Shown here: piece after piece, positions 15,541 through 40,135 of the stretch | Layout: the number at the start of each line of letters is the position of its first letter | Position numbering within the stretch: the stretch's first letter is position 1 | Assembly: GCA_008933675.1 (NCBI GenBank) | Contig: WBUO01000002.1 | Coordinates: 1 to 62,015, forward strand | Length of the DNA stretch: 62,015 nucleotides | Source: Dechloromonas sp. | Lineage (GTDB): Bacteria > Pseudomonadota > Gammaproteobacteria > Burkholderiales > Rhodocyclaceae | Direction of reading: 5' to 3' | Notes under the pieces: model-generated | The model's database searches: none | Seen by the model: only the letters and a program-made list of their open reading frames with translations | What the model was told of the DNA's origin: nothing | Translations under genes and position numbers: made by a program

Positions 15541-15560
15541 GATGCCCCTCCCTCCGGGAC

Positions 15561-20382: not shown

Positions 20383-20385
20383 ACT

Positions 20386-20395: not shown

Positions 20396-20418
20396 GGGGC
20401 CGCTCAGTGGCAGTTTGC

Positions 20419-21630: not shown

Positions 21631-22820
21631 CCCTTCAGCCTCTCGGCAAGAGCAGGCGTGCTCGGTAGGTTGATCAGTTCAAGTTCAAGCCGCTCAGCCA
21701 CAGGCAACTCGGCTCGTGGGCAGTCGTCGTACATCGGCAGGCGATGCATAAGCGTCCAGGCCGGACGACACCAATAGCCCGCTTCGTTCGCGGCGGTCAG
21801 TAGCGCGTCACGCTGCGCGCGGTCCGCACCTCGCACACGGATCGCATTGAGCCAGTAGTTGCTTGAGCACCCCGTCGGCTCCACGACGAACTTGAAGCTG
21901 CCATCACCTGAAAATGTGCTGCTGTAAGCCGCCGCCAGACGACGTTTTTTCTCCAGAAAACCCGGCAGGCTTTCCAGTTGGGCGCAGCCAATCGCAGCAT
22001 TCAGATTCGGCATTCGGTAGTTGTACGCGACGTCAGTGTGGAAAAACTCCCATTTGTGCTGCTGTTTTCCCGTTGTCGTCAGATGCTTGAGGCGAGCGGC
22101 CAGAACCGGATCGTCTGTCAGGATCGCGCCCCCACCGCCGGTGGTCAGGATCTTGTTGCCATTGAAGCTGAGCACCCCCATCGCACCGAAACTGCCGGTA
22201 TGCCTGCTGCCAATTTGCGAACCCAGCGACTCAGCCGCATCTTCGATGACGGCAAGACCGAATTTCTCTGCAATCCCATTGAGGGCTGGCATGTCAGCCG
22301 GGTGACCGAAGGTATGCATCGGCACCAGTGCAGCCAGTCTCCGGCCGGTAATGCGGTTGCGGAATCCCTCCGGTGTCCGCTCGGCAATTCGTTCGAGATA
22401 CGCTGAAAGGGCCAGCGGATCGACACCGAGCGTCTGCTCGCAGCTATCGACAAAATGGGGGACTGCGCCACAGTACGAAACTGCGTTGGCCGTTGCCACG
22501 AAGGTCAATGCCGGCAGCAACACCTCGTCACCGGCTCGAACCCCCGCCACCAGCAAGGCGACATGGAGCGCGGCGGTACCGTTAACTGCGGCGATGGCGT
22601 GAGTAACGCCGGTGTATGCGGCGAGGCGCCGCTCGAACTCATCGACGTACTTGCCGACAGAAGAGACCCAACCGGTGTCGAGGCACTCCTTGACGTATTC
22701 CAACTCATTTCCCTGGAACGAGGGCTCGTGCAGTGGAATGCCATCACCCGCGGCCCCCAGCACGTCGCTGAGCAACGCCACGAGGCGTTCGCCGGAAGAA
22801 TCGGGAAGCACTGGGTTCAT
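21627..22820 (-). CDS. legC: DegT/DnrJ/EryC1 aminotransferase (LegC type)
   Basis: The 397-residue PLP aminotransferase adds an amino group at C4 of the keto sugar made by LegB. Family motifs are GTAALHVALLVAG, DAAESLGS and the PLP lysine in FNGNKILTTGGGGA. The N-terminal section (PLHEPSFQGNELEYVKECLDTGWVSS) is typical of the LegC subgroup that acts on bacillosamine/legionaminate precursors. It lies 12 bases after legB and overlaps legG by 4. Confidence 0.92.
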   Translation of the reverse strand: MNPVLPDSSGERLVALLSDVLGAAGDGIPLHEPSFQGNELEYVKECLDTGWVSSVGKYVDEFERRLAAYTGVTHAIAAVNGTAALHVALLVAGVRAGDEVLLPALTFVATANAVSYCGAVPHFVDSCEQTLGVDPLALSAYLERIAERTPEGFRNRITGRRLAALVPMHTFGHPADMPALNGIAEKFGLAVIEDAAESLGSQIGSRHTGSFGAMGVLSFNGNKILTTGGGGAILTDDPVLAARLKHLTTTGKQQHKWEFFHTDVAYNYRMPNLNAAIGCAQLESLPGFLEKKRRLAAAYSSTFSGDGSFKFVVEPTGCSSNYWLNAIRVRGADRAQRDALLTAANEAGYWCRPAWTLMHRLPMYDDCPRAELPVAERLELELINLPSTPALAERLKG

Positions 22821-22832
22821 CCTTCTCGGCCT

Positions 22833-23828
22833 TCAGATATTGTAGCGATCGGTCTTGTAGCGCAGGAGGTTATCCGGGTTGGAAAACCAGGCGGCCGTCT
22901 CGGACAAACCGCGCCGGAACCCTTCGCGTCCGGCATATTGAGGCGTCCAGCCGAGCAGTTCGCGAGCCTTAGCGTTATCCGCCCAGAGCCGCTCCACTTC
23001 GCTCAGGTCGGGGCGCAGGCGCTGTTCGTCCGTGGTGACCTCAATGTCGGCACCCATCACGTCCGCAATCAGGGCGACGGTATCGCCTATCGATATTTCG
23101 AAGTTGGAACCGAAGTTGATAACCTCTCCAAGTCCGCGTTCGCTTTCCAGCGCTGCCACGAAGCCGCGCACCGTATCCGAAACATGATTGAAGTCACGCG
23201 TCGGTCGCAGAGCACCGAGCTTGATCGAGCGCTTGCCTGCCGCGACCTGCCCGATGATTGTCGGGATCACCGCCCGAGCGGACTGGCGCGGTCCGTAAGT
23301 ATTGAACGGGCGGGCAATAACGACCGGCAGGCCGAACGAGGCATAGAATGAATAGGCCAGTTGGTCGGCGCCGATTTTCGAGGCGGAGTAAGGGGACTGT
23401 CCTTGCAATGGATGTTCCTCGGTAATCGGCACAAAGCGCGCGGTGCCGTAAACCTCGCTGGTAGATGTATGCACAACCCGGGACACGCCAAGATCACGGG
23501 CAGCCTGCAATACGTTTAAAGTTCCTTTTACGTTGGTATCAACATAGGTGTCGGGCGAGTGGTACGAGTACGGGATGGCAATCAGTGCTGCCAGGTGAAG
23601 CACTGCATCGCAACCTTTTATTGCCTCACGTACGCCATTCGGGTCACGAATGTCCCCGGCAAAAACATCCAGGTTCTTCTTTGCTTCGTTCGGCAGCGTG
23701 TCAAGCCATCCCCAGCTACCAAAGGAGTTGTAGAGAACGAAAGCGCGTACATCGTGCCCCTTGGCCAGCAACGCTTCCACTAGGTGGGAACCGATGAAGC
23801 CATCTGCGCCCGTAACCAGTACTTTCAT
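22833..23828 (-). CDS. legB: NDP-N-acetylglucosamine 4,6-dehydratase (LegB type)
   Basis: The 331-residue extended SDR shows TGADGFIGSHL, STSEVYGTA and YSASKIGAD, and belongs to the LegB group that dehydrates GDP- or UDP-GlcNAc at C4/C6. With PtmE in the operon, the GDP-sugar is the likely substrate, as in Campylobacter. It opens the core legB-C-G-I-H-ptmE-F series, 3 bases after the FemAB-like gene. Confidence 0.92.
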   Translation of the reverse strand: MKVLVTGADGFIGSHLVEALLAKGHDVRAFVLYNSFGSWGWLDTLPNEAKKNLDVFAGDIRDPNGVREAIKGCDAVLHLAALIAIPYSYHSPDTYVDTNVKGTLNVLQAARDLGVSRVVHTSTSEVYGTARFVPITEEHPLQGQSPYSASKIGADQLAYSFYASFGLPVVIARPFNTYGPRQSARAVIPTIIGQVAAGKRSIKLGALRPTRDFNHVSDTVRGFVAALESERGLGEVINFGSNFEISIGDTVALIADVMGADIEVTTDEQRLRPDLSEVERLWADNAKARELLGWTPQYAGREGFRRGLSETAAWFSNPDNLLRYKTDRYNI

Positions 23829-23831
23829 GAA

Positions 23832-24857
23832 TTAATGCTCCTCAGCTCGCTCACGCATGAGTTCGAGGTCGATGACGGGTTTTAGTTGGCCGCCGAATCC
23901 CATTTTGAAATCGCTGATCGACATCAGCTTTTCGTCTTCGCACGCAACGACGGGATTGTTGAAAAAGTATTTTTCGTTTACGTCAAACCAACGGCAACCA
24001 AGTGCTTTTGCGCGCAGCATGGCGTGCCACATCAAGGTGTGGAACATCGGTTTTTCAAACAGGTCTCGACGTGAAGCAGACGAGAAATAGGTGCACATTG
24101 AGGACGTAAAGGTAAACATCCCCGCAGTCACAAGCTCCTCGTCCATCCATCCGAGCAGCAGAAACGCATTACCTTCAGTTACCCAGCGATACTGGCTGCG
24201 CCAACTCTCGATTGAGCGCGTCTCGCGACCGGCGACTCGGATATGGAGCTCGCGGAAGGCATCCATTTTGGCCCAATCCTCTGATAATGCCTCTACAAAC
24301 TCGAGGCGCAGATTCTTTCGGCCGCCGTTGATCAAGCTTCGGTAACTCCGGCGCACATCCCGCCAAAGCTCTGAGTCGTCGCGGCGAAGGTCAATCAGCT
24401 GGAAGGTATGAGTCTTGAGTTTTGCCCCTTCACGCAGCATGTGCTGAACCATGGGTGAAAACAGTCCAAACTGAAGAAAATCTCGCAGCAGCACCGCGCC
24501 ATTGATTTGAGCCATTAAACGCTCAAACTCCGAGATGAACAGATCAAAAGCGGGAGACGGTGTTGCCTCAGCCTGATCAGCAAGGCACAACCCCGGAATT
24601 TCATATGCTTTGAGGTCGGCGCGTTTGCCATCACTGACAATGGCGCCGAGATAGGCAAAACGCGGCTCGCCACGGCTCGCTACAACGAAGGAGACATCAA
24701 CAACGGAGAGGCCAGAGTCCTGCGGTCGTTGCGAGTAATAGTCAAGCGCGCTACGCGTATAGGAGTGTGGTTGCCACTCCTGCTGCACCCAGAGTGCCAT
24801 GACGTACCCGGCAAAACGAGGGTCGTCGTGCCTTACGAGTTCGATTGCGGGATTCAT
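23832..24857 (-). CDS. FemAB-like / GNAT-fold protein at the head of the legionaminic operon
   Basis: The 341-residue protein has the C-terminal half of FemAB-like acyltransferases: VRRSYRSLINGG, ESWRSQYRWVTEGNAFLLLG, YFSSASRRDLFEKPMFH, GCRWFDVNEKYF and a closing ISDFKMGFGG. No signal peptide or membrane segment is seen. It is the first gene of the minus-strand operon. A related protein is encoded at 27325-28200. Aminoacyl or acyl transfer to an amino-sugar or nonulosonate is plausible, but the substrate is not shown by the sequence. Confidence 0.8.
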   Translation of the reverse strand: MNPAIELVRHDDPRFAGYVMALWVQQEWQPHSYTRSALDYYSQRPQDSGLSVVDVSFVVASRGEPRFAYLGAIVSDGKRADLKAYEIPGLCLADQAEATPSPAFDLFISEFERLMAQINGAVLLRDFLQFGLFSPMVQHMLREGAKLKTHTFQLIDLRRDDSELWRDVRRSYRSLINGGRKNLRLEFVEALSEDWAKMDAFRELHIRVAGRETRSIESWRSQYRWVTEGNAFLLLGWMDEELVTAGMFTFTSSMCTYFSSASRRDLFEKPMFHTLMWHAMLRAKALGCRWFDVNEKYFFNNPVVACEDEKLMSISDFKMGFGGQLKPVIDLELMRERAEEH

Positions 24858-25129: not shown

Positions 25130-25519
25130 GGAGCCATCGCTGAGCCTGTTGGCTGCTGTTCTGGATGCACGACAAGCGAGCGCAAGCCGCCTTCGTTGAC
25201 CTCCAAGGTACAATGTCGCTCCGCAGCATTTCGCCTGTCCCGGCATTGATTCCGTCGCAATATCCATATGAAGCTGGCCTACCTATCTGCCTCGACCATT
25301 CCCTCGCGTTTGGCCAACAGCGTTCAAGTCATGAAGATGTGTCAGGCCTTCAGTCAACTCGGGATGATGACTTGCCTGTATGTGCCGGACATGCCGGCCG
25401 ATGCGCTGACGGTCGGTGAGAGTTGCCATTCGCGCTATGGCGCGGCGCGGGTCTTCGAAATCGAGTGCGTCTGGTGGTCGAAGCTGTTCGGACGTCTGTA
25501 CGTCTCGGGCTTCCTCGCT
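25130..25519 (+). repeat. Direct repeat copy R1 (partner at 33889-34277)
   Basis: About 390 bases match 33889-34277 at roughly nine in ten positions by eye. The match covers the last codons of a ParB-like gene, a 125-base leader with a shared TACAAT box, and the first 84 codons of a GT4 glycosyltransferase. Identity stops abruptly where transposase sequence begins. Confidence 0.88.
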
Positions 25520-25564
25520 CCGCTGTTGCGGCGGTTGCCGGGATGGATGCCTTCGAGGAAGTGA
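25268..25564 (+). pseudogene. Truncated GT4 glycosyltransferase, 5' fragment
   Basis: The frame starts MKLAYLSASTIPSR and follows the first 84 residues of the intact GT4 at 34026 with scattered substitutions. It then switches at about 25520 into 14 unrelated codons and stops. Only the beginning of the N-terminal Rossmann domain is present, so it cannot be an active transferase. It is interpreted as the remains of a second copy, cut by the IS5-type element. Confidence 0.88.
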
Positions 25565-26176
25565 TGCCGGACGAAAATGCCATCCTGCGCTTCCGGCATC
25601 TGCTGGAGAAGCCTGACCAGGAGGAGGCGATCTTCGCCGAGGTCAATGCCGTGCTGTCTGAGAAACTTCTACCGAAGAAGCGTGCTAGGGTCGTTGATGC
25701 GACGCTGATTGCGGCGCCCTGTTCGATGAAGAATGAAGACGAGAAACGCAATCCCGAACGTGGCCTAGTGCATACCGTTGAATGCACGACAGCCAAGGTC
25801 GCCGACATCGCGATGCTGGAATCCTGCCTGCATGGCGAGGAAACCCTGGTCTTGGGTGGCCGTGGCTATCACAGGAAGAACCGGACGATTGATACCTTTG
25901 AGAAGGAAGGCCGTCTGATGGTGCTGAAGCCGACCAAGAAGCCTGCCGGTGGCACGCTGAGCAAGGAGCAGAAAGCGTTCAACCGCTTGTCGTCGGTCAT
26001 CCGGGCAGTGGTGGAGCACCCGTTCCCGGGCGGTCAAGCGGCAATTCGGCTATGCCAAGGTTCGCTATCGCGGCCTCGCCAAGAATATCGGGCAGATCGT
26101 GACGCTGTTCGCCCTGACCAACCTTTGGCTGGCACGCAAACGATTGTTGCCTTTGATGGGCGAGGTGCGCCTGTGA
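25520..26176 (+). pseudogene. IS5-family DDE transposase remnant, inactivated
   Basis: Recognisable blocks are ILRFRHLLEK, VVDATLIAAPCSMKN, GLVHTVE, LHGEE and RAVVEHPF. The N-terminal part is missing. The block that normally separates the RDPE-like motif from GLVHTVE (KGNQWYFGMKAHIGVD-type) is deleted. The second catalytic Asp of the FGDAGY-like motif reads LGGRGY. A one-base frameshift near 26030 moves the tail (KRQFGYAKVRYRG ... LMGEVRL) into another frame that stops at 26176. No terminal inverted repeats were identified. Confidence 0.87.
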
Positions 26177-26308
26177 AGCGGGAAGTACAGGGGGAAACCA
26201 CAAAATTTCATGCTCGCCAGTCGAGAATTGTTTGCTTTTTATCGTGTATATGACATTTTGAGCAATATTTTGGGGTTGCTCAGAGAATATTGGAGGATAT
26301 ATAAGATT

Positions 26309-27247
26309 ATGAGAAAGATTGCTGATTTGGTTAGGTATTCAATAAGGAATTTTATTATTTTTCCAGTTGTGGCAAGGGCAAAATTCATAAGAATCCAGGG
26401 GCACAAATATCGTTCTTTGAGAGTTGTTCTGCTTAAAAGTTGGGCCAAAAAACTTCATGATGTAATGAAGAGGTGTGAATTCAGGCAAGATATCCTTGTG
26501 AAGGGCGACGGTGATATCTGTATCATCTCTGACGGTGTGATCTTGGATTGTGACGGCTCCAATCGTTATTTCAAAGTTTCGGGCAAGTCATCAGGAAACG
26601 AAGGGGTGGACATGCTGAGCTTCCTGAAGGCGAAAGGAATGACCGAAATAAAATCCATGATCGATATCGGCACTAATGTTGGAGAGATAAGCCTTTATTT
26701 CAGCAAGGAGTTCCCATCGGCAAGGATTGTCTCGATAGAACCGTCCCCTAGAAATCTTCATTTTCTGAGGAAGAATATTGCCGCGCAGTATTTTAATACG
26801 AAGAATATTGCCATTTTTGAGTGCGCCTTGTCTGACAAGGACGGTGAGGCATTTCTTTCCGATAGCAAAGCCCAGTCCAGTATTGTCGTTACAAATAACA
26901 GCAAGAATGGCTATGAGGTACGGACGATCAGGCTTTCAACGCTTTGGGCGGAGGCTGGGCTTGGTGATGTGGATTTTGTAAAAATAGATATCGAGGGTGC
27001 TGAGCCATTGCTTCTTCGTGATCTCGAAGAGTATGCGAGTCGCGCTGGGGCTTGGTTGATCGAGTTTGGCGGGAAAAATTCGCCGGATGCCTATGTTGCT
27101 TTCTTCTCTCTATTCGAAAGAAAGGGTTATCGGATTTACAGTCGTGCAGGAGAAATGTTTGCAAGCGCCAAAGACGCAGAGAGCTATTTCCGTCAGCATA
27201 AAGAAGGTGATGATTTCTGGTTTGTTAGTCCGCAGTATTTGAATTAG
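26309..27247 (+). CDS. FkbM-family SAM-dependent methyltransferase
   Basis: The 312-residue protein has the SAM-binding motif SMIDIGTNVGEISLYF, the acidic segment IVSIEPSP, and the FkbM signature DFVKIDIEGAEPLLLRDL. Such enzymes O-methylate sugars of surface glycans. I prefer ATG 26309, which has GGAGG 12 bases upstream; an in-frame ATG at 26210 would use the end of the dead IS. The gene is visibly A+T-rich with codon use unlike its neighbours, a sign of separate acquisition. Confidence 0.85.
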   Translation: MRKIADLVRYSIRNFIIFPVVARAKFIRIQGHKYRSLRVVLLKSWAKKLHDVMKRCEFRQDILVKGDGDICIISDGVILDCDGSNRYFKVSGKSSGNEGVDMLSFLKAKGMTEIKSMIDIGTNVGEISLYFSKEFPSARIVSIEPSPRNLHFLRKNIAAQYFNTKNIAIFECALSDKDGEAFLSDSKAQSSIVVTNNSKNGYEVRTIRLSTLWAEAGLGDVDFVKIDIEGAEPLLLRDLEEYASRAGAWLIEFGGKNSPDAYVAFFSLFERKGYRIYSRAGEMFASAKDAESYFRQHKEGDDFWFVSPQYLN

Positions 27248-27324: not shown

Positions 27325-28200
27325 ATGATCCCCACTACAGCAACGCCTTCGGAATCGTTCAGTGACGCTTCCGCCAATGCGACCGTTATCCAGGCTGTGC
27401 TACCGCACACTGGTAAGCTCTGTCGCTCTTCCATCTGTTTCGGGGAAAGCAGTTTCAATACGCTGTTCCCGCGTGACGCATCGGCCAAGACCATCAAGTC
27501 GATCGTTACCCGTTGCCATGCGCTGGCGGCAGCGTTTACGGGAGGTGCGTATGCCTGCCTGGAACTTTTTTTCGCCACCCTAGGGTTGAGCGAATGGTAT
27601 CTAAAGGCCGTTCGCGCCAGTGCAGTCGCCACAATCGTCCGTGAAATTTTCATCGATCTCGGCATGTACGTGCCGAAAATCCGTACCGCTTTCCTCAGAA
27701 GATACAAGCCGCTGATCTTGATGGGGGAGTGGCTAAGCTCAGTGACGGTCTGTCGGAATACACCGGCGGAGGTTAGGGACGAATTCCGCAGCCTGCATCG
27801 AGAGGCCGCCGGTCGCGGCACGCGCTCACCCGAGAGCTGGCTGCGGCAGCACGAGGCGATCATCGCCGGCAGTGCTTTCTTTGTATATCTGCGCGATGCC
27901 GATGGACGCATGGTCGGCGGCGGACTCTTCCATGTCAGCCGCGATGAAGGGCTGTATGCCGTCGGCGCCTACGATCGGGCGCTTTTCGACAAGCCCCTGG
28001 GGCATCTGGTGCAGTCGCATGCGGTCAACGAAATGAAGCGCCGTGGCCTCAAGTGGTACAAGATCGGCGCCTCCGCCTATCCAGGGGATAGTCCCCGCCC
28101 TTCCGACAAGGAAATCGCCATCTCGCACTTCAAGCAGGGCTTTGCCACCCACCACTTTGCTGCGTTGCGCTTCGAGTTTGCCGGCGGTGCCGAGCGATGA
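27325..28200 (+). CDS. FemAB-like / GNAT-fold protein, second copy, possibly N-terminally shortened
   Basis: The 291-residue frame ends like the gene at 23832-24857: FRSLHREAAGRGTRSPESWLRQ, SAFFVYLRD, LYAVGAYDRALFDKPLGH, GLKWYKIG and a final ISHFKQGFATHHFAA. The N-terminal half is shorter than in the paralogue, an in-frame stop lies just upstream, and no ribosome site is clear at ATG 27325, so truncation is possible. It overlaps the next gene by 4 bases (ATGA), which ties it to the plus-strand glycan module. Acyl or aminoacyl transfer is inferred from the family. Confidence 0.75.
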   Translation: MIPTTATPSESFSDASANATVIQAVLPHTGKLCRSSICFGESSFNTLFPRDASAKTIKSIVTRCHALAAAFTGGAYACLELFFATLGLSEWYLKAVRASAVATIVREIFIDLGMYVPKIRTAFLRRYKPLILMGEWLSSVTVCRNTPAEVRDEFRSLHREAAGRGTRSPESWLRQHEAIIAGSAFFVYLRDADGRMVGGGLFHVSRDEGLYAVGAYDRALFDKPLGHLVQSHAVNEMKRRGLKWYKIGASAYPGDSPRPSDKEIAISHFKQGFATHHFAALRFEFAGGAER

Positions 28201-29321
28201 AATCGCGTTTGCCATTGATCAGTGCCTGGGTCGGTCGCGGCAATTTCGGCGACGAGTTGCTGGGTTACGGCCTGCGTCTTGAACTCTACCGGATGGCGGC
28301 CATCGAGCGCCTTTGTTATCACGAAGCGGGCGACCAGCCGATCTATCGCGCGCTTGACGATGTGGCCATCGATGTCATGCAGCATGTGCGGGACGGCCGC
28401 TTGCGGCGATGGCTGGCGAGTTTCCGCCTGCAGCGCGCTGCTCACGACACGATTTTCTTCGGTGGGGGTTCGGTTCTGCACTCCGAACACAGCATTCGCT
28501 GGAAACACGCCCTGCTGAAGCGCTTCAGGAATAGTGCCGGGGCCGGAAAGGGCCTGGCCGCCGGTGTTGGCCTGTCGCTCGGTCCCTTTGCCAATAGGGC
28601 GGCCGAGCAGCGGGTCCGTGACTTCATCGCCGACCTCGATCTGCTGATCTGCCGGGATGCCTCATCGGCGGCATTCGCTCGATCACTGGCGACGCCAACG
28701 GCTATCGTCGATGGACGGGATCTTGCCTATGGTGTCCGTTGCCATCATCCTGAAATTTTCCGGCCCTCCTTACCGCGCACGCGCGTCGGTGTTTCGTTCA
28801 TCCTGAATCCATCGCTCGATGGCGGGCGGCAAGCCGCCCATCTGTCACGCATGCAGGCCATCGTCGACCTGTTGACGGATGGCGGGCATGAGGTGCTCCT
28901 GATCGCGCTCTATACAGCCGGGAAATACTTCGATGACCGCCTTGCCGACCGTCTGCAGGCTTCGGCGCGGCATCCGGAGCGGGTTGCCGTGCATCATTAT
29001 CGCGGTGATGTCGTGCAGACGAGCGGCTGCATCGCCTCCTGTACCCATCTGATCTCGATGCGTCTGCATGGCGCTGTTACCGCTTATCTCGCCGGAGTGC
29101 CGGTACTGACCCTCAACCGGCATCCGAAGGTTGTCGAGTTTGCCCGGGAGAGTGGCGTTGCCCGCCAGGAAGATGCCGTAGACATTGACAGCCCGATGGA
29201 AGATATCCGGGGAAGGATCGACGCATTGCTGGCGTTGCCGCCGCAAGGGCCTGTCTGCGTCCCGGCGGATGACATGCGCTACGGAAATTCCATTGAACAA
29301 CTCAGGACCCTGATCGAATGA
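28197..29321 (+). CDS. Polysaccharide pyruvyltransferase-family protein
   Basis: The 374-residue protein fits the PS_pyruv_trans family: N-terminal WVGRGNFGDELLG, IFFGGGSVL, a central LLICRDASSAAFA, and C-terminal SMRLHGAVTAYLAGVPVLTL. These proteins add pyruvate ketals to surface sugars or act as related GT-B-like enzymes (WcaK, CsaB). It overlaps both neighbours by 4 bases. The sugar acceptor is not predictable from sequence. Confidence 0.85.
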   Translation: MKSRLPLISAWVGRGNFGDELLGYGLRLELYRMAAIERLCYHEAGDQPIYRALDDVAIDVMQHVRDGRLRRWLASFRLQRAAHDTIFFGGGSVLHSEHSIRWKHALLKRFRNSAGAGKGLAAGVGLSLGPFANRAAEQRVRDFIADLDLLICRDASSAAFARSLATPTAIVDGRDLAYGVRCHHPEIFRPSLPRTRVGVSFILNPSLDGGRQAAHLSRMQAIVDLLTDGGHEVLLIALYTAGKYFDDRLADRLQASARHPERVAVHHYRGDVVQTSGCIASCTHLISMRLHGAVTAYLAGVPVLTLNRHPKVVEFARESGVARQEDAVDIDSPMEDIRGRIDALLALPPQGPVCVPADDMRYGNSIEQLRTLIE

Positions 29322-30715
29322 TCCAGAATTACATCGCAGCCAAGGCCGACTGCAAACCCACCATCTATCTGCCGGTCGAGATCAAGGCGAGAGAACTCAA
29401 GGCAAAGATACTGATTGCCCTGGTTGCGGCGCGCCATGGTTTCCGTATCTATCTTGGGAGCAAGCAGGCCATCGACCAGTTGATCGAGTGCAAACCGGGC
29501 AAAGGTGGCATCTACTTCTACAAGGGGGGCAAGCCGGCCGCGATCCTTGCGGGAATCAAGGATCGGGTCGACCGGTTCGTCGTTCTTGACGAAGAAATGG
29601 GGCCGGCGGTTCAGGATCTGGATAGTTACTATCAGGGGCGGATATATCCTGGAACCGAGGCCTGGGTGGACAGGATGTTCCTGCTCGGGCAAACGCACCT
29701 CGACTCGCTGTGCCGGGTGCGCCCCGAACTGGCCCCAAAGGCTGTGGTGACTGGTTGGCCGCGCGTCGACCTGTGGCGGCCAGAGCTCAAGCATCAATTT
29801 GTCGGGGATGTCAGTGCATTGCAGCAGCAGCACGGGGCGTACCTACTTTTTTCATCGGATTTTGGTGTCATCTCGCAGGAGGCGCTGGGTCGTGAGCTCA
29901 GGCGTCTCGGTGAAAGTCACTTTAACGAAGCTGAGCGTCACCGACAAACGAAACGACTCCACGATGCCTACGCAGATTTTGACCGGTTCGTGGCCCTCGC
30001 CAGAAAACTGGATGCTGATCCGGAGTGCCCCCCGATCATCATCCGCCCGCATCCTTCGGAGACCATTTCCGTCTGGAAGGAGAGGCTTGGGGCGTTGCAG
30101 AAGACAAGGATAATCTTTGAAGGCGAGATTAGCCCTTGGCTCTATGCATCATCCGGCTTGCTGCATCGTGGCTGCACGACGGCCGTACAGGCATATTTCA
30201 GCGATATCCCGTCCATCTACATTCTCGATGCGCATGCAAGTCCGAAGACGGCAACCCTCCCATTCCAGATGTCGCATGCAGCGGCAAACTATGACGAATT
30301 GGTCACCCTGTCCAGAGCTGCCATGGAGGGTTCCCTGCACAGACAGGATGATGTCCATGCTCAGGAGCATGTGTTCACCGAGCCGGCACTGGCAACTGAG
30401 CGCATCGTCACCGAGTTGGAGCATTTGCAGGCAGCTGGTGAACCACCCTATCGGCCAAGCAAACTGGGGGCAATTGCGCAACTGCTTCAGGGGCGTTTTG
30501 TCGAGTGGCGGGCGGCAACCGGTATCGGCCTGTCCAAGCGCCGCGTGGCGAGAATGAATCGCAAGCTGCCCGGGGGCATCCATGCGCCGGAAATCAGCCG
30601 GATTGCTGCTGGCCTGGATGTCGTCGAAGGCGTCTCGATTCGCGAAATCGCCTTCAACGCAATCGAGATTGACATGCCCGTCAGCAAGGTCGTTTCAGTG
30701 GGATCAAATACATGA
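29318..30715 (+). CDS. Surface carbohydrate biosynthesis protein, GT-B-like
   Basis: The 465-residue protein resembles the group annotated as surface carbohydrate biosynthesis proteins: YLPVEIKARELKAKILIALVAA near the start, VTGWPRVDLW, IIRPHPSE, and SGLLHRGCTTAVQAYFSDIPSIY. The RPHP and HRGCTT blocks recall CDP-glycerol and Kdo-type transferases with a GT-B fold. No membrane segments. It overlaps the GT2 gene by 4 bases. A glycosyl- or glycerophosphotransferase role is inferred. Confidence 0.75.
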   Translation: MIQNYIAAKADCKPTIYLPVEIKARELKAKILIALVAARHGFRIYLGSKQAIDQLIECKPGKGGIYFYKGGKPAAILAGIKDRVDRFVVLDEEMGPAVQDLDSYYQGRIYPGTEAWVDRMFLLGQTHLDSLCRVRPELAPKAVVTGWPRVDLWRPELKHQFVGDVSALQQQHGAYLLFSSDFGVISQEALGRELRRLGESHFNEAERHRQTKRLHDAYADFDRFVALARKLDADPECPPIIIRPHPSETISVWKERLGALQKTRIIFEGEISPWLYASSGLLHRGCTTAVQAYFSDIPSIYILDAHASPKTATLPFQMSHAAANYDELVTLSRAAMEGSLHRQDDVHAQEHVFTEPALATERIVTELEHLQAAGEPPYRPSKLGAIAQLLQGRFVEWRAATGIGLSKRRVARMNRKLPGGIHAPEISRIAAGLDVVEGVSIREIAFNAIEIDMPVSKVVSVGSNT

Positions 30716-31491
30716 GCACCGCAGCAGAGCAAGCGGAATTGCGATCAGGTCAGCTTCGCTTTTCAGTTGTCATCCCGACAGCCGACCGCGGTCCCTTGCT
30801 GCGTCGTTCGCTTGATTGCGTACTTGGCCAGACTTTGCCGCCTCTAGAAGTCCTGCTTGTCGACAATGGTCGTGAAGCGGTCGATCCGCTGGGCTTTCCC
30901 GCCGGTGTCCGGGTAATCCGCACCGCCCCGCGCATTGGTCCAAGCCGGGCGCGCAATACGGGGGCTCAGGCAGCACAGGGCGACTACGTTGCCTTCCTGG
31001 ACGATGACGACCTGTGGCAGCCGGATTATCTGCAGGCTGTAGCGGAACGTCTGCGTGAAACCGGAGCCGATGCTGCGCTGGGTCAGTTGATGCGACTCGA
31101 TGCCAGCGGCCAGCCAAAGCCCTACAAGCTGCTGCCCGAGACAGCGGAGGGGCAGCGCCGGGTATTTCATTCGAATCCGGGTTTCGGTGGACAGAATCTG
31201 ACGATACGGCGCGATGTCTTCCTGGCTTTCGGTGGTTTCGACGAAACGATGCCTGCTTCCGAGGACCGCGATCTGGCGGCTCGCCTGTTGCTTGCCGGCA
31301 AGCGGCTGGTGCCGGTGCCGCGGGCGGTCGCCGTTCTTTGCGACCATGGTGGCGTGCGTGCGCGACACAACCAGATTCGCGGCAACTGGATGTTCATCGG
31401 CAAGCACTGGCGTAAGATGCGCGCCGGCGAGCTGTACCAGGCGTGCAAGGTGCTCCTCTACAGGCGCCTCCAGGTCTGGATCAATCGTTGA
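30712..31491 (+). CDS. Family 2 glycosyltransferase
   Basis: The 259-residue GT-A enzyme shows FSVVIPTADRG, LLVDNG, GPSRARNTGAQAAQGDYVAFLDDDD (nucleotide-sugar and metal binding) and the acceptor-side FDETMPASEDRDLAARLL. It lacks membrane helices, so it should work at the inner face of the inner membrane on the growing lipid-linked glycan. Donor and acceptor unknown. Confidence 0.87.
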   Translation: MSTAAEQAELRSGQLRFSVVIPTADRGPLLRRSLDCVLGQTLPPLEVLLVDNGREAVDPLGFPAGVRVIRTAPRIGPSRARNTGAQAAQGDYVAFLDDDDLWQPDYLQAVAERLRETGADAALGQLMRLDASGQPKPYKLLPETAEGQRRVFHSNPGFGGQNLTIRRDVFLAFGGFDETMPASEDRDLAARLLLAGKRLVPVPRAVAVLCDHGGVRARHNQIRGNWMFIGKHWRKMRAGELYQACKVLLYRRLQVWINR

Positions 31492-31510: not shown

Positions 31511-32377
31511 GTGGCGGATTTGATGACGCGTGTTCTCGAGCGGGGCAGCAGGGTGTTGCTGCGGGCGGCCCGTTCCCGTCGGCTGGCGGATTTCCCCGGT
31601 AGCCTCGTGGTTGGCGGTCAGCGCGTGAGCGAGCTGCATCCGCTGGGCGGTTTTCATCGGCCGGGGATCACCAAGGCCGGTCGTCTGTCCTTCCGCGGCT
31701 TGTGTGCTGGCCGGATGGTCAAGGTCTACAGCGTGCATTCGCCGGCCCAGGCGGCGTTGCGGCTGGCCGTGCGCGAGCTGACGATCGGCGGCTGCGCATT
31801 TCCGGAAGTGATTGCCGCCGATGAACATTTGATCGCCGAGACGTGGATTGATGGAGAGCCTGCCGAATCCCTGTCCGGCGAAGCGCGCGCCGCCGCTTTG
31901 GCGGCCGTCGACAGATTTCTCGCCGCCCGCACGAGCGAGCCGTCGCTGCTCGACCTCGCAGCCCGCCATGCGGACGCGTTCTGCTACATCGAACACTATC
32001 TGTTCGCCCGCCTCGGTCCCTGGCAGCACTGGGATCCCGTGCGCAGCTTCATCGCCGACTGGCATGCCGCACGTGAGCGACTAGCTGCACCACTTCCCGC
32101 TTATCTCAGCCATCCGGATGTCTCAGGTTCCAACCTGCTACGCGAGCGCTCCTCGGGGCGTCTGCTGATCATCGACAATGAACTTCTCGGCGTCGGCCCC
32201 GGCTGGATTCTCGATGGGCGTAATGCGTGGCAGGGCGGGACGCGCCCCCTGCCAGCAGCGGACGGCGTACCGGTGAGTTTCATTGAAATGACCTGGCGTT
32301 TGCGTCTTCTCGGTTCGGCTCTGGATGCCGGCAACTTCAGGCTGGCGGCGGCGATTGCCAGCGGTACCCAGGGGTAG
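31511..32377 (+). CDS. APH/choline-kinase-like protein in a glycan cluster
   Basis: The 288-residue protein has the core of a protein-kinase-like fold: Lys71 in MVKVYS, the catalytic loop LSHPDVSGSNLL (His201, Asp203, Asn208) and a metal-binding Asp222 in LLIIDNELLG. This is the pattern of aminoglycoside phosphotransferases and LPS sugar kinases. No signal peptide or membrane segment. I start at GTG 31511; ATG 31523 is an alternative. The longer upstream frame shadows the GT2 gene. Phosphorylation of a sugar or nucleotide-sugar intermediate is inferred. Its neighbours are two ParB/sulfiredoxin-like genes. Confidence 0.75.
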   Translation: MADLMTRVLERGSRVLLRAARSRRLADFPGSLVVGGQRVSELHPLGGFHRPGITKAGRLSFRGLCAGRMVKVYSVHSPAQAALRLAVRELTIGGCAFPEVIAADEHLIAETWIDGEPAESLSGEARAAALAAVDRFLAARTSEPSLLDLAARHADAFCYIEHYLFARLGPWQHWDPVRSFIADWHAARERLAAPLPAYLSHPDVSGSNLLRERSSGRLLIIDNELLGVGPGWILDGRNAWQGGTRPLPAADGVPVSFIEMTWRLRLLGSALDAGNFRLAAAIASGTQG

Positions 32378-32380
32378 GGC

Positions 32381-33142
32381 GTGCACACCGAATCCTCCGC
32401 GCCAATGCTCGCCCTGAAGCGGCGGGTGCGCCGCTTTCGTGCTTGGCGCCTGGCCGCCGGCCATGCCCTGGGCAGTTTGCGTCGTCTCGGCAATGGTCCG
32501 GCGCTGCTGGCGGACCTGCGTTTTCCCAACCTGCTGCTGCCGCCGGTGATCCATGTCGCACCGCAGCGTATCGATTACATCTGCAGCGTTTCCGCCAAGC
32601 CTGCATGCGGCTGTCCGCTGTTCATCGGCGGCGACTGGGATCAGCGGATGTTGCCGACGCTCGTTGCCGAAGCGGAGAGCCCGAAATTCCTCAGTTGTCG
32701 TGAGCTTCTCGTCGATGGCCTGGCGCCGGAAGAGACCAGCGAGTATCGCTTCATCATGGCGGCGATTGCCCGTCACGGAAGTTACCGCGGTTGCGTCGAT
32801 GCGGACGATGCCCGGGCGCATATCGAGGCGCGGCTGGCGTTCTACAGGCGGGTCGCCGAGGGCGGTTACCGTCGCCAGTCGGCCCTGGGCGAAAGTGGCC
32901 TGATCGGGGAAATCGAGTGCGCCGTCGATCGCGACGGACAGCTGGTCAAGATCAACGCCGGCAACCACCGCCTGGCCGTTGCCCGGCTTCTCGGTCTGCC
33001 CGCGATTCCGGTGCACCTGACCATGATCCACGAAAGCTGGCGTCCAGGATTGACCGTTTCCGGCGGGCTGGCCAGCCTTTCCCGCGTGCGTGCCTTCATC
33101 GCCGACATCGAGGCGGCGCACCGTCTTCCTGCTGCCCGGTGA
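32381..33142 (+). CDS. ParB/sulfiredoxin-like domain protein, first of a tandem pair
   Basis: The 253-residue protein starts at GTG 32381, 3 bases after the kinase-like gene. It has FIGGDWD (81-87), CRELL, ETSEYR (119-123 region), a helical stretch, and a C-terminal ParB/Srx-like motif KINAGNHRLAVARLLG (GNHRLAVAR 194-202) followed by IPVHL. The HRL motif in ParB, sulfiredoxin and ParB-like serine kinase binds nucleotide phosphates. No DNA-binding HTH of partition ParB is present, so plasmid partition is unlikely. A nucleotide-dependent step in glycan synthesis is inferred; function is unknown. Confidence 0.7.
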   Translation: MHTESSAPMLALKRRVRRFRAWRLAAGHALGSLRRLGNGPALLADLRFPNLLLPPVIHVAPQRIDYICSVSAKPACGCPLFIGGDWDQRMLPTLVAEAESPKFLSCRELLVDGLAPEETSEYRFIMAAIARHGSYRGCVDADDARAHIEARLAFYRRVAEGGYRRQSALGESGLIGEIECAVDRDGQLVKINAGNHRLAVARLLGLPAIPVHLTMIHESWRPGLTVSGGLASLSRVRAFIADIEAAHRLPAAR

Positions 33143-33169
33143 GCGAGCGCCAACAACAATGTCCAGACG

Positions 33170-33901
33170 ATGCTTTCTGAACACTTGAAACGTGCGGCAC
33201 GCGTCCGCTTCGACTCGGCTGTCGCCCGGCTCAATGCCTGGTCTTTCCTGTATCTCCAAGGGGATCGCCCGGTAGCTCTGGGCCGCCTGAGAATGCCCAA
33301 TGCCGCTTTGTTGCCGAAAATCTTCATCAATCCCGACAAGCTGGCCTTCAAATGCAACATCCGCGGGGATGACGAAGGGCAGCGCAAGCTGTTTCTGGCG
33401 GGCGACTGGGATCTCAAGCGCAAGGGGTTCGCCGATGTCGATGCCAACGATCCCCGCTATGTGACCTGCCGGCAATTGATCCGTGACGCGGCGCCGCTCG
33501 AGGAAACCGCCGAATACCGGGAGCTGATGCTGCGCCTCAGGAAGCACGGTGTCGCCCGGAGTTTCCGCAGCGAGAAGGAGATCCTCGGCTATCTGGAAAA
33601 GCTGCGCCAGTTCTACTTGCGCGTGCAAGCGGACGGTCGCCTGAAGACACAGGCGGAGCTGGGACTGGCGGCGCACGGCGGCGAGATCAATTGCGCGCTT
33701 GGTCGTGATGGCGTGCTGTTGAAGACGAACGATGGCAACCACCGTCTGGCGATTGCCAGGGTTCTCGGGCTGGCCAGCGTTCCCATCCAGATATCGGTCA
33801 TCCATGCGTCGCTGATTCCGGAGGTGGCGGCACACGACCCGGCGAGCGGCACTGCCGCGATCAATGCTTTCCTCGAGAAGATAGAGCGGAGCCATTGCTG
33901 A
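33170..33901 (+). CDS. ParB/sulfiredoxin-like domain protein, second of the tandem pair
   Basis: The 243-residue protein is a diverged paralogue of the previous one. It shares LAGDWD (76-81), TCRQLI, EETAEYR, and LLKTNDGNHRLAIARVLG (GNHRLAIAR 189-197) followed by VPIQI. The N-terminal 60 residues also align (RMPNAALLPKIFINP with RFPNLLLPPVIHVAP). Both copies keep the same key residues, so both may be active. Its last codons start the direct repeat R2. Not recognised beyond the fold. Confidence 0.7.
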   Translation: MLSEHLKRAARVRFDSAVARLNAWSFLYLQGDRPVALGRLRMPNAALLPKIFINPDKLAFKCNIRGDDEGQRKLFLAGDWDLKRKGFADVDANDPRYVTCRQLIRDAAPLEETAEYRELMLRLRKHGVARSFRSEKEILGYLEKLRQFYLRVQADGRLKTQAELGLAAHGGEINCALGRDGVLLKTNDGNHRLAIARVLGLASVPIQISVIHASLIPEVAAHDPASGTAAINAFLEKIERSHC

Positions 33902-34277
33902 GCCCGTCGGCAGCTGTTCCGGATGCGCGACAAGCGAGCGCGAGCCGCCTAGGTCGACCTCCAAGGTACAATGTCGCCCCGCAGCATTTCGCCTGTCCCG
34001 GCATTGATTCCATCGCAATACCCATATGAAGCTGGCCTACCTTTCCGCCTCAACCATTCCCTCGCGCTCGGCCAACAGCATCCATGTCATGAAGATGTGC
34101 CAGGCCTTTGGCCAGCTCGGGATGATGACTCGCCTGTATGTGCCGGACATGCCGGCCGATGCGCTGGCGGCGGGCGAGAGTTGCCATTCGCGCTATGGCG
34201 TGGCGCGGGTCTTCGAAATCGAGCGCGTCTGGTGGTCGAAGCTGTTCGGGCGCCAGTACGTCTCGGGTTTTCTCGCC
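33889..34277 (+). repeat. Direct repeat copy R2 (partner at 25130-25519)
   Basis: This is the intact-context copy. It runs from the last codons of the second ParB-like gene, through a 124-base leader with TACAAT (33967-33972), into the first 84 codons of the GT4 at 34026. The copies differ by many scattered substitutions and one single-base indel in the leader. Confidence 0.88.
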
Positions 34278-35165
34278 GCGCAAAAGGCTGTGCGGGATGG
34301 CGCACAGTTCGCCCTGGCCCGCTGTATTCCCAGCGCCTGTTTTGCCGCGCGCGCCGGATTGCCGGTCGTCTTCGAGTATCACCAGCCGATTTCCGATTCG
34401 GGGCGGCTGTCACGCCTCAACGAGCTGTTGTTCGACGGCCTGATCACCGCCCCCGGCTTTCGCGGGCTGGTCGTCATCACGCATGCCCTGAAGGCACATT
34501 TTCTCGAACGCTATCCGCAACTGGCGGAGCGCATTTTTGTTGCGCCCGATGGCGCAGATCCTTTCCCGGCCGACGTGCAGCCGGTCGATCTGCAGGCGGC
34601 GGGCGGGCGCCTGCAGGTCGGTTACGTCGGCCATCTGTTCGCCGGCAAGGGCATGGAGGTCGTCGCCCAGTTGTGCCGGCAGGCGCCTTTTGCCGATTTC
34701 CACGTTGTCGGCGGCCTGGAGCGGGATATCGAGCAATGGAAGGCGGAACTCGGCGGCCAGCCGAACATCCGCTTTCACGGCTTCGTGCCGCATGCGCGGA
34801 CGGCCGCATACATTGCTGCCTTCGATGTGGTGCTGTTGCCCAACCAGAAGCGGATCACCTGGCACAAGGCCGGGGGAGACATCGGGCAATGGACCTCGCC
34901 GCTGAAAATGTTCGAATACATGTCGGCCGGCAAGCCGATCGTCAGCTCCGATCTGCCGGTGTTGCGTGAGGTCCTGCAGGACGGGCGCAATGCCTTGCTG
35001 TGTGCGCCCGACGATATTCCGGCCTGGCGGGCGGCGCTGGAGCGGTTGAATGACCAGACCCTGCGCACGGCGCTCGGGGAGCAGGCCCTGATGGATTTCA
35101 CGGCGCAGTATTCCTGGCAGCGCAGGGCCGAGTCCATCCTCAAGCGGTTTTCCGACAATGACTAA
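34026..35165 (+). CDS. Family 4 glycosyltransferase
   Basis: The 379-residue GT-B enzyme has an N-terminal domain (MKLAYLSASTIPSRSANSIHVMKMCQAFG), the donor-domain start RLQVGYVGHLFAGKGMEVV, and a GT4-type WTSPLKMFEYMSAGKPIVSSDLPVLREVL. A soluble or peripheral inner-membrane enzyme is expected. Its first 84 residues are duplicated at 25268. It overlaps the next gene by 8 bases. The long leader with a TACAAT box suggests it may begin its own transcript. Confidence 0.9.
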   Translation: MKLAYLSASTIPSRSANSIHVMKMCQAFGQLGMMTRLYVPDMPADALAAGESCHSRYGVARVFEIERVWWSKLFGRQYVSGFLAAQKAVRDGAQFALARCIPSACFAARAGLPVVFEYHQPISDSGRLSRLNELLFDGLITAPGFRGLVVITHALKAHFLERYPQLAERIFVAPDGADPFPADVQPVDLQAAGGRLQVGYVGHLFAGKGMEVVAQLCRQAPFADFHVVGGLERDIEQWKAELGGQPNIRFHGFVPHARTAAYIAAFDVVLLPNQKRITWHKAGGDIGQWTSPLKMFEYMSAGKPIVSSDLPVLREVLQDGRNALLCAPDDIPAWRAALERLNDQTLRTALGEQALMDFTAQYSWQRRAESILKRFSDND

Positions 35166-36237
35166 GAAAATATTCATCCTGGTGCCTTCCGACAGTGCGA
35201 CGGGGCCGATCAAGGGGGCTTACGCCCTGGCCAACGCTCTGGCCGGCCGGCGCGAGGTGACCCTGGTTTCCCTGAAGAAGGGCACCGGCGCCCATGCCGA
35301 CCTGGATGAGCGGGTCAAGCGCGTTTGCCTGGCCGATAGCGAGGCGGGGTTCGGCGGGCGCCTGCGCCTTTACCGGCGTCTGCTCGCGGCCGCCGGCGGC
35401 CGGCAGGGGGCGGCCTCGATCTCGATGTGCCTGTCGGCGGACGCCTTCAATCTTCTCTGTTCGCGGCAGGCGGTCATCTGCTCGAGCATCCGCGGCAATC
35501 TCGTCGGCGCCTACCGGATGAGCTATGGCCGCATCGGCGTGCTGGTGGCGGCGATCCATCTGGCGGCGCTGCGTTATTTCGACTGCGTCGGGGCGATGAC
35601 CGAGGCGATGGCGAAGCAGATAGCCTCCTTCTCCGGCAAGCAGCCGGCGGTCATCGGCAATTTTGTCGATGAAGCCTTGCTTGCCCCCTTTGTGACGGAC
35701 CGCCAGAAGGAAGGGGCATGGCGCTTTGCCTTCGTCGGTTCGCTGACCGTATTGAAGCAGCCCGGACTGATCGTGGCCGCACTGGCCGAGCTGAAGGCCC
35801 TGGGGCATGAGGTGCGCGGTGATTTTCTCGGTGATGGACCGTTGCGCGAAACCTTGCACGATGAAATCGTTCGTCATGGCTTGTCGGATCTCATCAGCCT
35901 GCACGGTTTTCTGCGTTCGCCCTATGAGCCGCTGGCCCAGGCCGACGTGATGGTCCTGCCCTCCTTGTCCGAAGGGGTACCGCGCGCCGCCCTGGAGGCT
36001 CTCTATCTCGGGGTGCCTTGCGTGTTGCGCGATGCCGACGGCAATGCGGAATTCATCGCCGAGAACGTCAATGGCGCCCTGTTCTCGCGTGACGAAGATC
36101 TGGCCGCGGCCATGCTGCGGGCGGCGCGTATCAGCCGGCAGTCGGCGGGCGCAAGGCCGGCGAACCTGCTGCCCGAAAAGTTCCGGCAGGACAAGGCGGC
36201 CGGCATGTATCTTGACCTGGTGGAGGCGGTGAATTGA
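35158..36237 (+). CDS. Family 4 glycosyltransferase
   Basis: The 359-residue GT-B enzyme shows ILVPSDSATGPIKGAYALANALA at the start, WRFAFVGSLTVLKQPGLIVAAL at the donor domain, DFLGDGPLRETL and LPSLSEGVPRAALEALYLGVPCVL (the E-x7-E-like donor site). It starts inside the preceding glycosyltransferase gene and ends overlapping the TTG start of the methyltransferase, so the module is tightly coupled. Donor unknown. Confidence 0.9.
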   Translation: MTKKIFILVPSDSATGPIKGAYALANALAGRREVTLVSLKKGTGAHADLDERVKRVCLADSEAGFGGRLRLYRRLLAAAGGRQGAASISMCLSADAFNLLCSRQAVICSSIRGNLVGAYRMSYGRIGVLVAAIHLAALRYFDCVGAMTEAMAKQIASFSGKQPAVIGNFVDEALLAPFVTDRQKEGAWRFAFVGSLTVLKQPGLIVAALAELKALGHEVRGDFLGDGPLRETLHDEIVRHGLSDLISLHGFLRSPYEPLAQADVMVLPSLSEGVPRAALEALYLGVPCVLRDADGNAEFIAENVNGALFSRDEDLAAAMLRAARISRQSAGARPANLLPEKFRQDKAAGMYLDLVEAVN

Positions 36238-38653: not shown

Positions 38654-39591
38654 TGTCGACCTTGGTTACCGGTGCGGGGGGCTTCATCGGGCGCCGGCTG
38701 CTGAGCGGGGGAGCGAGAGCTCTGGTGCGTACCGCAAGCCGGCTTCCCGGCGCCGTGGTTGGCGATCTGCTCGACCGTGATTCGCTGCGGACAGCCTGCG
38801 CCGGCATCGAGACGGTGGTGCATTGTGCCGGCTATGCGCACGCCTTTACCTCCTCGGACCCGGATGCTCACCACCGGATCAATTTCGTCGGTACCTGCAA
38901 TCTGCTCGATGCGGCGGCGGCTGCCGGTGTGCGCCGTTTCATCTTCCTCTCCAGCGTCAAGGCCATGGCCGAACCCGGCGAGGCGTGTGTCGACGAGGAT
39001 TGGCCTGGGCTGCCGGAGACGCCCTACGGTCAGGCGAAGCGCGCCGCAGAAGAGCGTGTCTGCGAAACCGGGGCTCGCCATGGGATGCACGTGGTGAATC
39101 TACGCCTTTCCATGGTGTACGGCCGGGGCGGCCGGGGAAATCTCGAGCGCATGGCGCGCGGTATCCGGGCGGGCTGGTTTCCGCCCCTGCCGGCAACCGG
39201 CAACCGGCGCTCGCTGGTCCATGTGGATGACGTCGTGGCGGCCATTCGCCTGGTTACCGATGCGCCGGCAGCCAACGGGCGGACCTACATCGTGGCGGAT
39301 GCGGCCGCCTACTCGGGCAGCGAGCTCTACGACACGCTGCGTCTGGCGCTGGGAATGCCGCCGACGGCCTGGCGCTTGCCGGCACCGGTTCTGCGCCTGG
39401 CCGGTCGTCTGGGAGATGTCGGCGGCAGCTTGCTGCGCCGTCCGTTGCCGATGAATGGCGAGGTCGTCGAGCGCCTGCTCGGCTCCGCTTGTTACTCCCC
39501 GCTGCGCATCGAGCGTGAACTCGGCTGGCGGGCGAAAATTGCATTGATTGATGGTGTAAAGGAGATGCTCGGCAATGAAGCGTCTGTTTGA
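38653..39591 (+). CDS. NAD-dependent epimerase/dehydratase, UDP-4-keto-sugar 4-reductase type
   Basis: The 312-residue extended SDR has LVTGAGGFIGRRLL, AGYAHAF, FLSSVKAMAE and YGQAKRAAE, and NRRSLVHVDDVV, as in the WbpV/WreQ group. Beside a small phosphoglycosyltransferase and a WbpM-type dehydratase it would reduce UDP-4-keto-6-deoxy-GlcNAc to UDP-QuiNAc or UDP-FucNAc. ATG 38653 overlaps the acyltransferase stop by one base; GAAGGGGG is the ribosome site. It overlaps the next gene by 17 bases. Confidence 0.85.
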   Translation: MSTLVTGAGGFIGRRLLSGGARALVRTASRLPGAVVGDLLDRDSLRTACAGIETVVHCAGYAHAFTSSDPDAHHRINFVGTCNLLDAAAAAGVRRFIFLSSVKAMAEPGEACVDEDWPGLPETPYGQAKRAAEERVCETGARHGMHVVNLRLSMVYGRGGRGNLERMARGIRAGWFPPLPATGNRRSLVHVDDVVAAIRLVTDAPAANGRTYIVADAAAYSGSELYDTLRLALGMPPTAWRLPAPVLRLAGRLGDVGGSLLRRPLPMNGEVVERLLGSACYSPLRIERELGWRAKIALIDGVKEMLGNEASV

Positions 39592-40135
39592 TCTGCTCGT
39601 TACGGTTCCGGCCAGCCTGCTGCTGCTGTTGCCGATACTTGTGGTAGCCCTGCTGGTCAGGCTGACCTCGCCCGGCCCGGTGCTTTACTGGTCCGATCGC
39701 GTCGGTCGTAACAACCGGATTTTCAGGATGCCGAAATTCCGCAGCATGCGCATCGGCACGCCGGCCGTCGCCACCCATCTGCTCGCCGATCCAGCCAGTC
39801 ACCTGACACCGATCGGTTCCTTCCTGCGCAAGAGCAGTCTCGACGAACTGCCCCAGCTGTGGAGCATCCTCAAGGGCGACATGAGTCTCGTCGGACCACG
39901 CCCGGCGCTGTTCAACCAGGATGACCTGATCGCCCTGCGAACCGAGCAGGGTGTTCACATGCTGCCGCCGGGGCTGACCGGCTGGGCGCAGGTGAATGGC
40001 CGGGACGAGTTGCCGATACCGGAGAAGGTGAAGCTGGATGCCGAGTACATGCGCCGGCAGTCACTCTGGTTCGATGTGCGGATTTTGTGGCGCACGGTCC
40101 TGAAGGTTATGCTCAGGGACGGTGTTTCCCACTAA
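39575..40135 (+). CDS. Initiating phosphoglycosyltransferase, small PglC-like sugar transferase
   Basis: The 186-residue monotopic enzyme has one N-terminal hydrophobic re-entrant segment (RLFDLLVTVPASLLLLLPILVVALLV). The conserved bacterial sugar transferase domain follows: PGPVLYWSDRVGRN, MPKFRSMR, LRKSSLDELPQLWSILKGDMSLVGPRP and PGLTGWAQVNGRD. It should transfer a sugar-1-phosphate from the UDP-sugar to undecaprenyl phosphate, starting the glycan. Its partners on either side make that sugar. Size matches PglC/WreU rather than the long WbaP. Confidence 0.93.
   Translation: MKRLFDLLVTVPASLLLLLPILVVALLVRLTSPGPVLYWSDRVGRNNRIFRMPKFRSMRIGTPAVATHLLADPASHLTPIGSFLRKSSLDELPQLWSILKGDMSLVGPRPALFNQDDLIALRTEQGVHMLPPGLTGWAQVNGRDELPIPEKVKLDAEYMRRQSLWFDVRILWRTVLKVMLRDGVSH

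Follow-up and report, generated by a model that had tools for sequence, protein, structure and literature searches.

We have identified, in a 62,015-nucleotide (nt) stretch of the genome of Dechloromonas sp. (contig WBUO01000002.1, positions 1 to 62,015; hereafter the window), two adjacent genes whose products belong to an apparently undescribed family of the ParB/sulfiredoxin (Srx) fold, named here the GDWD/GxHR family after two of its motifs. The predicted fold, the conservation of motifs, the association of some family members with glycan genes and the occurrence of multi-copy arrays are all supported by our data. The paralogues may be nucleotide-dependent, probably phosphate-transferring, modifiers of glycans, a reading that we favour tentatively and rate at somewhat under even chances. 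They follow a gene with kinase motifs, and the original prediction of three consecutive, tightly spaced plus-strand genes within a glycan cluster was confirmed, with gaps of 3 nt between the kinase-motif gene and member 1 and 27 nt between members 1 and 2. The features concerned are as follows.

31511..32377, plus strand: kinase-motif gene (GTG start; 288 amino acids, aa)
32381..33142, plus strand: GDWD/GxHR family member 1 (GTG start; 253 aa; ParB/Srx fold predicted by kinship with member 2)
32630..32641, plus strand: GDWD motif of member 1, in the family-specific insertion (W in 47/47 alignment rows)
32960..32971, plus strand: GNHR, box II or P motif, of member 1 (from motif position and alignment conservation)
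33170..33901, plus strand: GDWD/GxHR family member 2 (ATG start; 243 aa; ParB/Srx fold predicted by structure model)
33401..33412, plus strand: GDWD motif of member 2 (W in 47/47 alignment rows)
33734..33745, plus strand: GNHR, box II or P motif, of member 2 (R192 in 47/47 rows; paired by hhalign with ParB GERRWRA)

Codon-position guanine-plus-cytosine (GC) content fits coding for all three genes. A long antisense open reading frame (ORF) at 32138-34018 is biased too, so composition does not settle the question. For the two paralogues coding status is decided by conservation; for the putative kinase gene the argument is its motif.

A family with a predicted ParB/sulfiredoxin core

The two paralogues are 35% identical and, as had been noticed at the outset, carry shared motifs in the same order: GDWD, EET and GNHRLA(V/I)AR, which begin at residues 84, 117 and 194 (GNHR) of member 1 and at 78, 111 and 189 of member 2. 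In a 47-row family alignment (A7, which omits nine of 54 stretches, namely all of L051, L052, L070 and L078), G78, W80, R192 and H212 (member 2 numbering) are invariant, and thus the shared motifs are not a product of chance. Near-invariant positions are D81 (45/47), P55, T113, G156 and G181 (46/47 each), and R179 and H191 (44/47 each); within the P motif, G is kept in 44 rows, H in 44 and R in all 47. The nucleotide-binding core, consisting of the box I helix and the GxHR P motif, is predicted to be split by a family-specific insertion of about 70-80 residues that holds GDWD and (W)EET. R192 presumably corresponds to the P-motif Arg of other ParB-fold proteins, in which mutation of this residue to Ala is described as abolishing nucleotide binding (PMC12704722). 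Against the family profile, of which it is itself a row, member 1 scores 225 bits. Most family members are single-domain proteins. One (L035:9120-10577, minus strand) carries a C-terminal class I S-adenosylmethionine (SAM) methyltransferase domain (PF13489, 3e-5, found in this one member); it adjoins a sulfotransferase gene, has a GT2 glycosyltransferase gene near, and lies in a locus that, on visual inspection, resembles a capsule cluster.

A ParB/Srx-like fold had been put forward as a refutable claim, and structure prediction and profile comparison support it. An AlphaFold2 model of member 2 (predicted local distance difference test, pLDDT, 82.3; predicted template modelling score, pTM, 0.74) was compared with the PDB using VIA-align. 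Among the matches listed, 27 of 29 structures were ParB/Noc/KorB/PadC, Srx, SerK or SbnI proteins (PDB 1vk1 being recognised as a SerK sequence), with low Z values of at most 5.4. The structural rows for SerK and SbnI were 21-23% and 17-20% identical to member 2, respectively, over 79-91 residues. Alignment of the family profile to 24 ParB-N sequences with hhalign spanned boxes I and II and scored 34.7 (E 4e-5 for a single comparison), compared with a maximum of 23.6 in 200 column shuffles. A block-shuffle control failed, with 100 shuffles reaching as high as 38.2. The hhalign comparison with SerK was weak (E 0.027); local mode paired box II alone, global mode gave nothing trustworthy, and an equivalent of Glu30 was not recovered. 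Sequence-only searches of solved structures returned chance matches only, and pentatricopeptide matches were rejected because their scores added up repeated hits to a single 18-residue helix. The modelled core fold, together with a box I helix and a G-x-x-R box II, supports a ParB/Srx fold for the family.

Existing family models do not recognise these proteins. PF02195 (ParB_N) matched none of 47 family members, nor any of the 20 members of alignment A3, at E<=0.1, and in the genome that carries the window it matched contigs C422 and C343 only, at E<=10. No credible Pfam or NCBIfam match was found for either window paralogue, and NCBIfam gave one chance-level match across the 47 members. Likewise, no credible Pfam helix-turn-helix match was found in the members scanned (20 and 47); chance-level DNA-binding matches occurred in two of the 47 (MazE, 0.022; Myb-like, 0.026). 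A 2025 survey, which describes the ParB fold as a versatile nucleoside triphosphate (NTP) module, searched with PF02195 at its gathering cut-off (PMC12704722). Because the survey was built on a model that detects none of the members scanned, it probably missed the GDWD/GxHR family; in its main text the words 'polysaccharide' and 'glycan' are absent, and 'glycosyl' occurs solely in a reference title. Judged by titles and abstract openings, no paper in the open-access collection searched connects glycan assembly with this family or with the ParB fold in general.

Distribution and linkage to glycan genes

The family is rare in the window's phylum and frequent in haloarchaea. Among 60 relatives, including 35 congeners, the only match was in the window's own genome, and across the order 3 of 399 genomes matched; these include the own genome and one whose match (L016) is a true ParB, which is not counted as a family member. 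Phylum-wide, 12 of 398 genomes matched, or 11 of 397 without the own genome; these include G725, whose locus L045 is doubtful (E 1.8e-9, 68 bits) and was left out of alignment A3, the 57-locus table and the GT4-proximity count. Haloarchaea (the class of Natronococcus amylolyticus, that species included) gave matches in 47 of 145 genomes, with up to 7 per genome. The 37 named loci also take in Roseobacteraceae, one Trueperaceae and one Nitriliruptoria metagenome-assembled genome (MAG). Plasmid matches were haloarchaeal only, amounting to 9 records in one search and 12, three of them weak, in another. No member was found in phage records, viral contigs or IMG/VR with the patterns used, and a first scan of genome contigs and three viral scans found no relatives. 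Elsewhere in its genome the window has a third, distant counterpart of the two paralogues (contig C515, L047:2051-2755), with no glycan-type gene in the 5 kb examined.

Recurrent co-occurrence with glycan genes, which the original prediction had proposed, was borne out. Within the window's class but outside its order, the family is strongly linked to GT4 glycosyltransferase genes: a GT4 gene (PF13692) lies within 2.3 kb of a family gene in all seven genomes, from five genera, where the background is 111 matches in 29.3 Mb. In five loci (L037, L039, L040, L041 and L044) it directly abuts the family gene. Counting the one same-order relative (G242), which has no GT4 gene close by, the figure is 7 of 8 relatives of the class, and three relatives outside the class (G440, G529 and G720) also have none close by. 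GT2 genes occur near family genes as well, with 7 in the examined loci of 24 genomes, from a set of 25 of the 37 named loci, compared with 1.18 expected from the genome-wide count of 303 in 98.9 Mb (Poisson 2e-4).

More broadly, a GT2, GT4 or flippase-type gene was found in the examined flank of 28 of 57 loci, many of which are close relatives, or in 26 of 57 without two Marivita GT4 matches (L075 and L076) that may be MurG. The glycan profiles used were home-made and seeded from the window and seven loci (L009, L035, L037, L040, L048, L055 and L058), which match by construction because they seeded them; a profile also overlooked a GT2 gene that seems to adjoin L062. Pfam tallies of neighbours across 42 loci covered 110 bacterial proteins and 115 archaeal ones (hand-edited from 136), from mechanical gene calls that are imperfect in GC-rich loci. 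Mur ligases (9) and GT4/GT2 families lead the bacterial set, and GT4 and polysaccharide-flippase families the archaeal set. Among annotated plasmid regions, five of seven hold glycan genes (four largely syntenic Halobaculum regions and one from Natronorubrum) and two hold none. We conclude that in haloarchaea the family is partly linked to glycan genes. In Rhodobacterales, seven of nine loci (L074-L077, L079-L082 and L084) had no glycosyltransferase or flippase gene. Mur-ligase, FtsW-type and HI0933-like genes are present near loci of this order, as seen in the neighbour tally and in L076, which was examined singly. A link to peptidoglycan is possible for these members.

Family genes often stand in divergent arrays. 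Natronococcus and a close relative (L049-L052) have three copies, one on the opposite strand, and two-copy arrays occur in L059 and Marivita (L074-L076). A haloarchaeal MAG has four divergent members side by side (L055:4764-8100), of which one lies on the opposite strand; GT4-type genes border them on one side and a gene for a DUF6541-like membrane protein on the other. A phylogenetic tree, which lacks L072 and one L075 copy missed by the motif filter, assigns the members of a single array to separate clades in Natronococcus, L055 and Marivita; thus these copies did not arise by recent duplication. In the window, the two paralogues are each other's nearest relatives, with weak support (93/45). 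Of 14 haloarchaeal genomes with at least three matches (15 such genomes exist), 12 have at least two matches within 3.5 kb, or 10 of 12 without G1190 and G1297, in which some matches are fragments of broken genes.

Possible functions and the kinase-motif gene

Of the three enzymes of the fold that have been studied, SbnI and Srx transfer a nucleotide's phosphate onto an oxygen acceptor, and SerK is described as doing so too (PMC5120207). By analogy with serine phosphorylation by SerK and SbnI, each paralogue would bind nucleotide through GxHR, hold an acceptor in the family-specific insertion, and phosphorylate either a sugar or an amino-acid substituent that a sugar carries, in a glycan intermediate located in the cytoplasm. 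The glycosyltransferases, methyltransferases and other decorating enzymes encoded nearby would work earlier or later in the pathway, and divergent side-by-side copies may serve different acceptors. We infer nucleotide binding, catalysis and the acceptor, and regard phosphate transfer to a glycan as the most economical reading because a conserved P motif, an insertion with near-invariant residues and glycan neighbours coincide. A bolder proposal, to which we give a rather low probability, is that the family forms a new enzymatic branch of the ParB/Srx fold, comprising nucleotide-dependent glycan phosphotransferases of bacteria and haloarchaea, whose divergent arrays would write a serotype-like phosphate pattern and whose methyltransferase-fused form would cap the phosphate.

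These patterns suggest recruitment of the ParB fold to the modification of sugars at the cell surface. If true, a family of this fold tied to glycan assembly in bacteria as well as archaea would extend its known roles and put a label on genes now called 'hypothetical' in the loci for O antigen, capsule and archaeal glycosylation. It would also offer a concrete test of a ParB/Srx-fold protein acting on sugars.

Alternatively, the proteins may be non-catalytic, nucleotide-gated switches or adaptors, with an NTP-binding core that regulates or scaffolds a neighbouring glycosyltransferase. The direct abutment of GT4 genes in the five loci named above, the single-domain build of the majority of members, and the capacity of divergent copies to pair with different partner enzymes are consistent with this, and ParB itself is described as a CTP-dependent switch (PMC12704722). 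However, near-invariant polar residues in the insertion and C-terminal part (D81, T113 and, in 47/47 rows, H212) look more like a substrate site, and the single methyltransferase fusion suggests sequential chemistry. We consider a non-catalytic role a modest possibility. Less probable still are free amino-acid kinases of the SerK/SbnI kind that would feed a phosphorylated precursor into the pathway and not act on the glycan. SerK and SbnI are among the structural rows, GxHR is common to SerK and the family, and a FemAB-like gene is nearby, but the SerK profile match is weak, its Glu30 was not recovered, and the insertion has no counterpart in the 79 SerK residues compared.

We also think it improbable that these are orphan DNA-binding or mobile-element relatives of ParB that sit by chance in variable islands such as glycan loci. 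Patchy distribution, presence on haloarchaeal plasmids, a transposase remnant in the window and the chance-level MazE and Myb-like matches would fit such an origin. Weighing on the other side are the lack of a credible helix-turn-helix match, the lack of members in phage records or IMG/VR with the patterns used, and GT4 adjacency across five genera of the class.

The kinase-motif product had been described as an APH-like kinase; the motifs are present, and no kinase-family model matches (no Pfam at E<=10, no NCBIfam at E<=0.1). K71 lies in VKVYS, HPDVSGSN begins at residue 201 and IIDNE at 220, giving the HxD....N and D.E motifs of the Brenner type. When the protein was shuffled 200,000 times, the signature HxD(4)N...[hydrophobic](2)DxE appeared in 15 cases, and is thus unlikely to be due to chance. 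A single-sequence structure model was unusable (pLDDT 35.4). No relatives were found in 199 other genomes of the phylum at E<=1e-4, in plasmids or in viral contigs, and 368 other genomes of the class gave just four chance-level matches (E 0.006-0.009). The best outside match (L113) was rejected, as it covers the motif stretch and lacks its residues. The predicted product is an orphan identified by motif only, and may be a fast-diverged glycan kinase.

Because this protein has no convincing homologue in the genomes searched, the exact trio recurs nowhere among them, and the trio was not upheld as a functional unit; what recurs is the GDWD/GxHR family, often in divergent arrays. Kinase-fold proteins of other families occur near three relatives (L037, L038 and L044; YrbL twice and Kdo/WaaP once), which we selected by eye; the 25 commonest families listed in the bacterial and archaeal neighbour tallies include no kinase. 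A dedicated three-protein glycan phosphorylation module, to which the shared strand, the short gaps and these three kinase-fold neighbours would point, is improbable, given an orphan partner, a trio without a second occurrence and kinases that were hand-picked from other families; any cooperation between the paralogues and the putative kinase is conjectural.

The surrounding cluster and the closest known systems

The trio begins 19 nt after the end of a GT2 gene, and member 2 ends 124 nt before the start of a GT4 gene. The recognised genes of this cluster are as follows.

26210..27247, plus strand: FkbM-family methyltransferase (TIGR01444, 1.8e-26)
27325..28200, plus strand: FemAB-like protein (TIGR04421, 8.9e-52; 176 bits, under its cut-off of 250)
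28197..29321, plus strand: polysaccharide pyruvyl transferase (PF04230, 4.4e-22)
29318..30715, plus strand: surface carbohydrate biosynthesis protein (TIGR04396, 2.4e-60)
30712..31491, plus strand: GT2 glycosyltransferase, directly upstream of the trio (PF00535, 1.1e-28)
34026..35165, plus strand: GT4 glycosyltransferase, downstream of the trio (PF13692, 7e-20)
35158..36237, plus strand: second GT4 glycosyltransferase (PF00534, 7.2e-23)
39575..40135, plus strand: bacterial sugar transferase, probable initiating enzyme of this cluster (PF02397, 5.4e-59)

A DDE transposase remnant (25423-26253; PF01609, 1.9e-7) separates this glycan cluster from a sugar module to its left, and the region of the FkbM methyltransferase gene shows a dip in GC content, to 0.50 at 26-28 kb, as if recently acquired. 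The minus-strand module (14773-24857) resembles nonulosonic-acid synthesis, in a search not aimed at the synthase itself, and encodes a UDP-N-acetylglucosamine (UDP-GlcNAc) 2-epimerase, a DegT aminotransferase, a dehydratase, a cytidylyltransferase, a PglD-like protein, a CBS-nucleotidyltransferase and a class III aminotransferase. Further along, 42173-44104 encodes an EPSP synthase fused to a cytidylate kinase (PF00275, 1.3e-124; PF02224, 3.3e-68).

Among known systems, the ParB/Noc/KorB CTPase clamps (PF02195) differ in having GERR, in the ParB proteins compared, where the family has GxHR, and their model does not match the family. Unlike ParB partition systems, the family has no recognised helix-turn-helix, and no ParA was found among the window proteins scanned, which cover part of the window ORFs; with the glycan-gene setting, these observations make it look unlike a partition system. 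The P motif of sulfiredoxin is GCHR and contains the catalytic Cys. Compared with sulfiredoxin (PDB 6ky4 and 3cyi), both window proteins have Asn at the position of this Cys, and Cys is not one of the six residues that are most frequent at this position of the 47-row alignment; additionally, the window proteins are much longer and their gene context is different.

A logical parallel, with no homology claimed, may be drawn between the methyltransferase-fused member (L035) and WbdD of E. coli O9a, where phosphorylation is coupled to methylation. WbdD is described as a fused kinase-methyltransferase that acts on O antigen, with a eukaryote-like kinase domain (PMC3482155). Also close are the free serine kinase SerK (TK0378; PDB 5x0b and 1vk1) and SbnI (PDB 5ujd/6nr6), which are described as lacking the ParB helix-turn-helix (PMC12704722), a domain not recognised in the family either. 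Both have the ParB/Srx core predicted for the GDWD/GxHR family, and the P motif of SerK, GHHR, is of the same GxHR type.
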